64,000 nt of DNA from Parafannyhessea umbonata (lineage in GTDB: Bacteria > Actinomycetota > Coriobacteriia > Coriobacteriales > Atopobiaceae): assembly GCF_900105025.1 (NCBI RefSeq), contig NZ_LT629759.1, positions 1,054,001 to 1,118,000 on the forward strand, written 5' to 3'. The translations under genes and the position numbers were made by a program. This document shows, in pieces, positions 55,914 through 62,485 of this stretch (positions are counted from its first letter, which is position 1; each line of letters begins with the position of its first letter). Below the pieces are notes generated by a model. That model was not told the origin of the DNA, ran no database searches, and saw only the letters and a list, made by a program, of their open reading frames with translations.

Positions 55914-59152
<3,239 letters not shown>

Positions 59153-59153
<1 letters not shown>

Positions 59154-60421
59154 CAGAAACGCCTCCCCTCGCGCACGTCGATGTCAAGGCAGTCAAGGTC
59201 GCCTGCCATGAGCCGTGCGAATGACGTGAACAGGTACGCGGAGTCGTGCGGCCCCGGGCACGCCTCCGGGTGGTACTGCACGCTGAACGCGGGCACGTCC
59301 AGAAACTGCACGCCCTCCGGCGTCCCGTCGTTAAGGTTCACGTGGGTAAGCCTCACGCGGCCAAAGCGCTCGTTCATGACCACGGGCGCCACGTGGCGCT
59401 CGCTCCATGCGCGCAGGTCGCGCTCGTGCTCCGCAAAGCCGCCGGACTCCTCCGGCACGATGCTCCCCAAAGACTCGAACACCAGCCCGTAGTTGTGGTT
59501 CTGGGCCGTAATCTCCACCCTGCCGGTCAGCAGGTTCATCACGGGCTCGTTTCCGCCATGGTGCCCAAACGGCAGCTTCTCGATCGTCGCGCCCGCCGCA
59601 AGGGCCATCAGCTGGTTGCCCAGGCAGATGCCAAACACCGGCACCTTCCCCATCAGCTCGCGCGCCGCCTGCGCGGTTGCCTCAACCTGGGTGGGGTCGC
59701 CCGGCCCGTTCGAGAAGAACACGCCATCCGGCGCCGCGCCGTCCTGCCCAAGCGCAAGCACGCGCCTGGCCGGCGTGTCCCACGGCACCACGACCGTCTC
59801 GCACCCCACGGCGGCGAGTCCGTCCGCGATGCCGCGCTTTTCTCCGCAGTCGTACGCCACCACGCGGAAGCGCCGCTCCCCCGCCGCAGGCACCACGTAC
59901 TCCTGCGCGGTCGATACGTCCGGCACGAAGTTGCGGCTCGATATGCAGGGCGCCTGGCACACGCGTGCCACAAGGCTCCTGGGGTCAAGGTCCTCCGTCG
60001 ATATCGCGGCGCGCATGGCGCCTGCCGAGCGAATGCGCAGCGTGAGCGCACGGGTGTCCACGCCCTCGATCGCGACGACACCACCCTTGCGCAGCAGGTC
60101 CGTAAGGCTGCCCTCGCTCTGCCAGTTGCTGGGCTCGCGGCACATGTCGCGCACCACCAGTCCAGACAGCGCAAGCCCGCCGGACTGCATGGCGGCGGCG
60201 CTCACGCCGTAGTTTCCCACCTGCGGATACGTGAGCGTCACGATCTGCCCCGCGTAGCTGGGGTCGCTCACGATCTCCTGGTAGCCCGCCATCGAGGTGT
60301 TGAACACGATCTCCCCAAAGGCCTCTCCCCCGGCTCCGGCGCTCCGGCCCCTATACACCGTGCCGTCCTCAAGCGCCAGAAGCGCCTCCGCCGGCCGTTC
60401 CCTGCTCACAAGTGGGTTCAT
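59153..60421 (-). CDS. carA: Carbamoyl-phosphate synthase small chain (glutaminase)
   Basis: 422 residues, longer than the usual 380 through its N-terminus and short inserts. N-terminal domain with [33 protein letters not shown], and class I glutamine amidotransferase domain with the nucleophile in [13 protein letters not shown] and HHGGNEPV; the His/Glu pair is in [13 protein letters not shown]. Supplies ammonia to CarB. GAGAGGA is before the ATG. The leader has a PyrR-binding loop and a terminator, so expression should fall when UMP is abundant. Confidence 0.97.
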
Positions 60422-60448
60422 GCGACCATCCTCTCCGTGCCGCGCGCC

Positions 60449-60480
60449 AAAAAGAGGGACCCCACCCTTGGCGGAATCCC
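60449..60480 (-). terminator. Leader terminator (attenuator) of carAB
   Basis: Minus-strand RNA stem GGGATTCCGCC/GGTGGGGTCCC, 11 bp with three G-U pairs and a 3-nt loop, followed by TCTTTTT. It lies 28 bases upstream of the carA ATG, so it must be read through for expression. Confidence 0.8.
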
Positions 60481-60506
60481 GAGTCATCACCTTGGCGCAT
60501 GGTCAT

Positions 60507-60538
60507 CCTTTACGGTATCTCCGTACCGTCCTTAAAGG
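60507..60538 (-). promoter_or_regulatory. PyrR-binding RNA loop
   Basis: Minus-strand RNA folds as lower stem CCUUU/AAAGG, a 5'-side purine bulge AAGG, upper stem ACGGUA/UACCGU and hexaloop CGGAGA. The hexaloop fits the PyrR consensus CNGNGA, and the purine bulge is also typical. With the terminator 26 bases downstream this is the known anti-antiterminator arrangement: PyrR-UMP binding favours termination before carA. Confidence 0.82.
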
Positions 60539-60621
60539 TTGTTTCGCATTGTAGATGGTCTGTTATGCGTTTTAGTATCTATTCGTAGTCCTGTTTATAA
60601 TTCTGTTACAAAGCGTCCGAG

Positions 60622-62329: not shown

Positions 62330-62406
62330 CGGGGTGTGGCGCAGTTTGGTAGCGCATCTGCTTTGGGAGCAGAGGGTCGCTGGTTCGAATCCAGTCACCC
62401 CGACCA
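62330..62406 (+). tRNA. tRNA-Pro (UGG)
   Basis: 77 bases with encoded CCA. Acceptor CGGGGTG/CACCCCG, anticodon stem TCTGC/GCAGA with loop TTTGGGA (anticodon UGG), T arm CTGGTTCGAATCCAG. Confidence 0.98.
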
Positions 62407-62409
62407 TAC

Positions 62410-62485
62410 GCGGCGGTAGTTCAATTGGTAGAGCAGCAGCCTTCCAAGCTGCCTGTTGCGGGTTCGAGTCCCGTCCGCCGCTCCA
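62410..62485 (+). tRNA. tRNA-Gly (UCC)
   Basis: 76 bases with encoded CCA, 3 bases after tRNA-Pro. Acceptor GCGGCGG/CCGCCGC, anticodon stem GCAGC/GCTGC with loop CTTCCAA (anticodon UCC), T arm GCGGGTTCGAGTCCCGT. Confidence 0.98.

Follow-up and report, generated by a model that had tools for sequence, protein, structure and literature searches.

Probable PyrR-controlled transcription attenuation ahead of carAB in Parafannyhessea umbonata, compared across the Coriobacteriia

What controls carAB in Parafannyhessea umbonata? In the 64,000-nucleotide stretch of its genome analysed here (the window), carA and carB lie behind a leader with two hairpins, which raises the question of whether the protein PyrR acts on this leader, and at which level. 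The first-pass annotation of the locus proposed a PyrR-type attenuator giving UMP feedback on carbamoyl phosphate synthesis through transcription. Our comparison of related leaders points the same way, and carAB is probably under a PyrR-controlled transcription attenuator of the Bacillus type. An attenuator at this position, in a gut-type actinobacterium and with the carbamoyl phosphate genes downstream, is well supported by the sequence comparison. The features of the locus are as follows.

60548..60553, minus strand: possible -10 box TACAAT, found by eye immediately upstream of the loop
60507..60538, minus strand: PyrR-type binding loop (anti-antiterminator), from sequence, fold, strict pattern and family model
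60538-60534/60511-60507, minus strand: lower stem of the PyrR loop
60533-60530, minus strand: purine bulge AAGG of the PyrR loop
60529-60524/60517-60512, minus strand: upper stem of the PyrR loop
60523-60518, minus strand: hexaloop CGGAGA of the PyrR loop
60470..60527, minus strand: candidate carA antiterminator, from suboptimal folds common to three species of the genus
60369..60500, minus strand: possible leader ORF of 43 codons from ATG 60500, with the loop 3' arm (AAAGGA) as its ribosome-binding site
60449..60480, minus strand: predicted intrinsic terminator, stem 60480-60456 with 11 pairs, U tract 60455-60449
60429..60436, minus strand: carA ribosome-binding site GGAGAGGA, from sequence
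59153..60421, minus strand: carA, carbamoyl-phosphate synthase small subunit (TIGR01368, E = 8e-128)
55914..59153, minus strand: carB, carbamoyl-phosphate synthase large subunit (NF003671, E = 0)

The carA leader element, with its PyrR-type loop and terminator, reads on the minus strand. From 60538 to 60507 the loop consists of CCTTT, AAGG, ACGGTA, the hexaloop CGGAGA, TACCGT and AAAGG. It thus contains every part of a PyrR binding loop, namely a CNGNGA loop, an upper stem, a purine bulge and a lower stem, and the hexaloop, AAGG bulge and two stems named in the first-pass annotation are all present in both the sequence and the fold. The predicted fold of the leader comprises both hairpins (z = -3.0). 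A strict pattern for the loop matches once in the window and in none of 100 shuffles. In 140 Atopobiaceae genomes it matches 13 sites, against 0 for a reversed control pattern; 12 of the 13 lie at carA, and the remaining one is an identical copy truncated by a contig end. Between the loop and carA, as in an attenuator, lies the predicted terminator, GGGATTCCGCC-AAG-GGTGGGGTCCC followed by TCTTTTTGG (TCTTTTT). This is the 11-bp terminator that had been placed just before carA, and it was found at 60480-60449. Seven of its 11 pairs are G-C, its loop has 3 bases, its energy is -17.5 kcal/mol, and it ends 28 nt upstream of the carA ATG at 60421. A further helix around the terminator, GCGCCAA/TTGGCGC, was dropped because it requires bases that are transcribed after the U tract. 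Boxes resembling the possible -10 box were seen by eye at the matching position in relatives, and a strict promoter scan found no promoter at the carA leader. At the other end of carA, carB overlaps its stop codon (59153). Another strong terminator, with 15 pairs, lies at 60664-60631 of the window on the minus strand, downstream of a glutamate dehydrogenase-like gene, and sets that gene apart from the carA leader.

The genome encodes a single PyrR, scoring 240.9 bits (cut-off 138), and the closest solved relatives of this protein are PyrR proteins of the Bacillus type. Its gene lies in a pyrR-pyrB operon, whose leader has its own loop and terminator, so that the same type of element precedes another pyr gene. 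A covariance model of the loop (R1) was built from 45 loops, with a training set from Atopobiaceae only. In the genome it picks out just the carA loop and the pyrR loop, and the next match has E = 6. Since the carA and pyrR loops belong to the training set, their scores are not independent evidence, whereas the absence of other loops is. Rfam RF00515 (PyrR) matches neither the carA leader nor the pyrR leader of this genome. Of the checks suggested by the first-pass annotation, the search for a pyrR gene and for a like loop at another pyr gene succeeded.

Leaders were gathered from up to 35 genera, 90 of them from carA and 91 from pyrR. Within Atopobiaceae, pyrR is present in 92 of 92 good-quality genomes. 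A loose loop pattern occurs in 57 of the 90 carA leaders, two of which look spurious, and in 86 of the 91 pyrR leaders; terminators follow the loop in 45 carA and 83 pyrR leaders. Loops of the family have six bases (CNGNGA) or five (CGAGA, CGGGA). The upper stem covaries: both sides have changed in 14 cells, compared with 3.8 in shuffles. In addition, a scan of 89 Coriobacteriia genomes with the Atopobiaceae-trained model also finds loops in other families, and all 18 inspected loci outside Atopobiaceae lie at pyrR (14) or carA (4). Family and genus labels used here are tool numbers, and the names Eggerthellaceae and Coriobacteriaceae for f2 and f3 are inferred from the order. One could still read the carA element as a chance hairpin next to an unrelated terminator, citing the lack of a match to the Rfam PyrR model. 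This is exceedingly improbable, because the loop is conserved, covaries and is restricted to carA and pyrR, and the comparative data refute it. The first-pass annotation had named the absence of pyrR and a hexaloop without conservation in relatives as grounds for giving up its reading. Instead, pyrR was found and the loop is conserved, and together with the terminator and the second loop at pyrR this bears out the proposed attenuator in substance.

How would such a leader switch? At high UMP, PyrR would stabilise the loop at 60538-60507, the terminator would form, and transcription would end before carA. At low UMP, an antiterminator would form between the 5' arm of the terminator and the apical and 3' portions of the loop, allowing read-through into carAB. 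We infer that PyrR binds the carA loop with UMP as the signal, and that a weak antiterminator suffices there. To weigh these folds, the best fold of each leader up to the 5' arm of the terminator was compared with the fold that retains the PyrR loop. Opening of the loop is favoured in 82 of 82 pyrR leaders, by 2-21 kcal/mol and mostly by more than 6 kcal/mol, and the pyrR leader of the window's genome has a strong antiterminator. In addition, the variable loop base of the pyrR leaders tracks its partner in the terminator arm (permutation p = 0.00025, collapsed by genus): A goes with T in 34 of 46 cases, G with C in 16 of 16, and C with G in 2 of 3. A table of 4-mer complements was too crude for this covariation, and the aligned register revealed it. 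Covariation thus shows an antiterminator of the Bacillus type in the pyrR leaders. Among carA leaders, at least seven genera of the family have strong antiterminators; those of g4, g13, g18, g21, g23 and g30 and of G016 in g17 amount to 4-15 kcal/mol, and the Eggerthellaceae-like carA leaders also have strong ones, of 4.7-8.7 kcal/mol.

The carA leader of the window's genus behaves differently. Here the PyrR loop itself is the best fold of the window's carA leader, with a gap of 0 kcal/mol (0-1.7 across the genus), and the best duplex between loop and terminator arm, taken from this one sequence, is no better than in shuffles (z = 0.2). This single-leader test missed a weak antiterminator that is visible in the suboptimal folds of three species. 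In the window it pairs GG 60527-60526 with CC 60471-60470, CGGAG 60523-60519 with TTCCG 60476-60472, and CCG 60515-60513 with CGG 60481-60479, and it cannot coexist with the PyrR loop or with the terminator. Each of the three species of the genus has the homologous pairing (GG, CGGAG and CCG with CGG, YTCCG and CC), 0.9-2.2 kcal/mol less stable than the best fold; its frame is kept, and a G.U pair becomes G-C in one species. According to the folding models, the carA antiterminator of this genus is conserved but weak and near the PyrR loop in energy. Conservation and the small energy gap together make a switch plausible but poised, although folding energy alone does not demonstrate function.

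In the main rival explanation, PyrR gates a leader ORF. The sequence AAAGGA in the 3' arm of the loop is followed by five bases and ATG 60500, and the ORF crosses the terminator and ends inside carA in another reading frame. Without PyrR, translating ribosomes would cover the terminator. PyrR with UMP would close the ribosome-binding site and let the terminator form, and no antiterminator would be necessary. A similar proposal was reportedly made by Van de Casteele et al. in 1997 for the pyr leader of Thermus strain ZO5, in which PyrR is said to block a leader ORF whose translating ribosome prevents the terminator; the two lineages are deeply separate. Spacing between ribosome-binding site and ATG is good in the window's genome (G000) and in a sister species (G030), but no start with this spacing is present in the third species, and the ORF has 43 codons in G000 and 6 in G030. 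Leader ORFs occur in 12 of 20 carA leaders that lack a strong antiterminator and in 1 of 31 that have one (per leader, Fisher p = 8e-6), a contrast that shrinks to 7 of 13 against 1 of 9 per genus (p = 0.07) and whose classes and spacing window were chosen after part of the data had been seen. Nine leader ORFs stop at most 15 nt from the terminator base (genus-weighted, 4.3 against 1.2 expected), as do 0 of 82 in pyrR leaders. On the other hand, shuffles already lead one to expect 4.9 leader ORFs where 6.7 are observed. In genus g16, three species retain a GTG ORF of 5-6 codons despite an indel inside it. It is possible, though rather unlikely, that PyrR gates the leader ORF in this way, and equally tentative that the window's genus, with a few relatives, has replaced the RNA antiterminator of carAB attenuation by a ribosome on a mini-ORF whose start PyrR hides within the loop. 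If true, one genome would use an antiterminator for pyrR and leader translation for carAB, each controlled by PyrR. The data are suggestive of a leader ORF that could assist or replace the weak carA antiterminator, and perhaps it is auxiliary to it.

Alternatively, PyrR on the loop could block translation of carA directly, as at pyrR of Mycobacterium smegmatis. Relatives give this idea some substance, as the loop lies at the start codon, with no terminator, in eight or nine further carA leaders of the family. In eight of these (L030, L111, L121, L122, L126, L129, L130 and L272, from G092, G074, G115, G056, G012, G023, G047 and G083, respectively) the loop stands directly at the start codon, and the ribosome-binding site is mostly in or beside its 3' arm; the leader of G021 is similar, with the ribosome-binding site farther downstream. 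This placement apparently fits translational repression of carA in these relatives. In the window, however, the carA ribosome-binding site at 60436-60429 lies ~70 nt downstream of the loop, so the overlap of the Mycobacterium type is missing. The terminator stands in between, and control should therefore be transcriptional. Direct repression is very unlikely here, and attenuation by PyrR stays the preferred reading for the window. Genera g29, g7 and g13 each contain both the start-codon form and the attenuator form of the carA loop, which suggests that control by one protein has repeatedly changed its level, transcriptional or translational, within the family.

In Bacillus subtilis, UMP-bound PyrR is described as stabilising an anti-antiterminator (PMC7430163). 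The present system resembles the pyr attenuators of that species in its pyrR gene, its purine-bulge loop of the CNGNGA type, its downstream terminator and an antiterminator, strong in the pyrR leader and a weak candidate at carA, in which a strand of the loop pairs with the terminator's 5' arm. It differs in that its sequence has diverged beyond the reach of Rfam RF00515, many Atopobiaceae loops have five bases (CGAGA), carAB has an attenuator of its own, and the carA leaders of the window's genus have only a weak antiterminator. For pyrR of Mycobacterium smegmatis, PMC10672894 attributes PyrR-dependent translational repression to Fields and Switzer (2007). That leader shares with ours PyrR control in an actinobacterium and, at carA of several relatives, a loop 3' arm that can hold the ribosome-binding site, but the terminator between loop and carA sets the window apart. 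As the mode published for Mycobacterium is translational repression, it was fair to call PyrR attenuation less well documented in actinobacteria. Our literature search found no paper on PyrR in Coriobacteriia.

The type of switch is already known, and the Coriobacteriia branch is one that the Rfam PyrR model misses. Our data place Bacillus-type PyrR attenuation firmly in this class, in Atopobiaceae and in Eggerthellaceae-like and Coriobacteriaceae-like families. In a single family, one protein and its loop act on one gene by attenuation in some members and, it appears, by masking the ribosome-binding site in others, and both occur within single genera. The Atopobiaceae carA leaders are thus a natural series for how switches change their level of control, and the diverged covariance model R1 could serve annotation.

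Several minor observations concern individual leaders. Most pyrR loops have five bases (CGAGA/CGGGA, e.g. L001:1371-1487), compared with CGGAGA at carA in the window's genus. In the carA leader of G030 (L013), the U tract is interrupted (TCTATTT) and a stop codon lies at the base of the terminator; this attenuator may be weakening. A sub-threshold Rfam YrlA match in the window (62351-62465, plus strand) is an artefact of two adjacent tRNAs and no Y RNA. In the g16 carA leaders (L083, L092 and L125, from G015, G043 and G060) the GTG ORF is preceded by a strong AAGGAG that lies within the PyrR loop, and it stops 4-6 nt upstream of the terminator in the three species. Finally, CGTC(C/T)ATAGCG is conserved directly 3' of the loop in carA leaders of g17 and g30 (L035, L093, L097, L100-L103, L107 and L109), where its ATA lies at start-codon spacing from AAGG.
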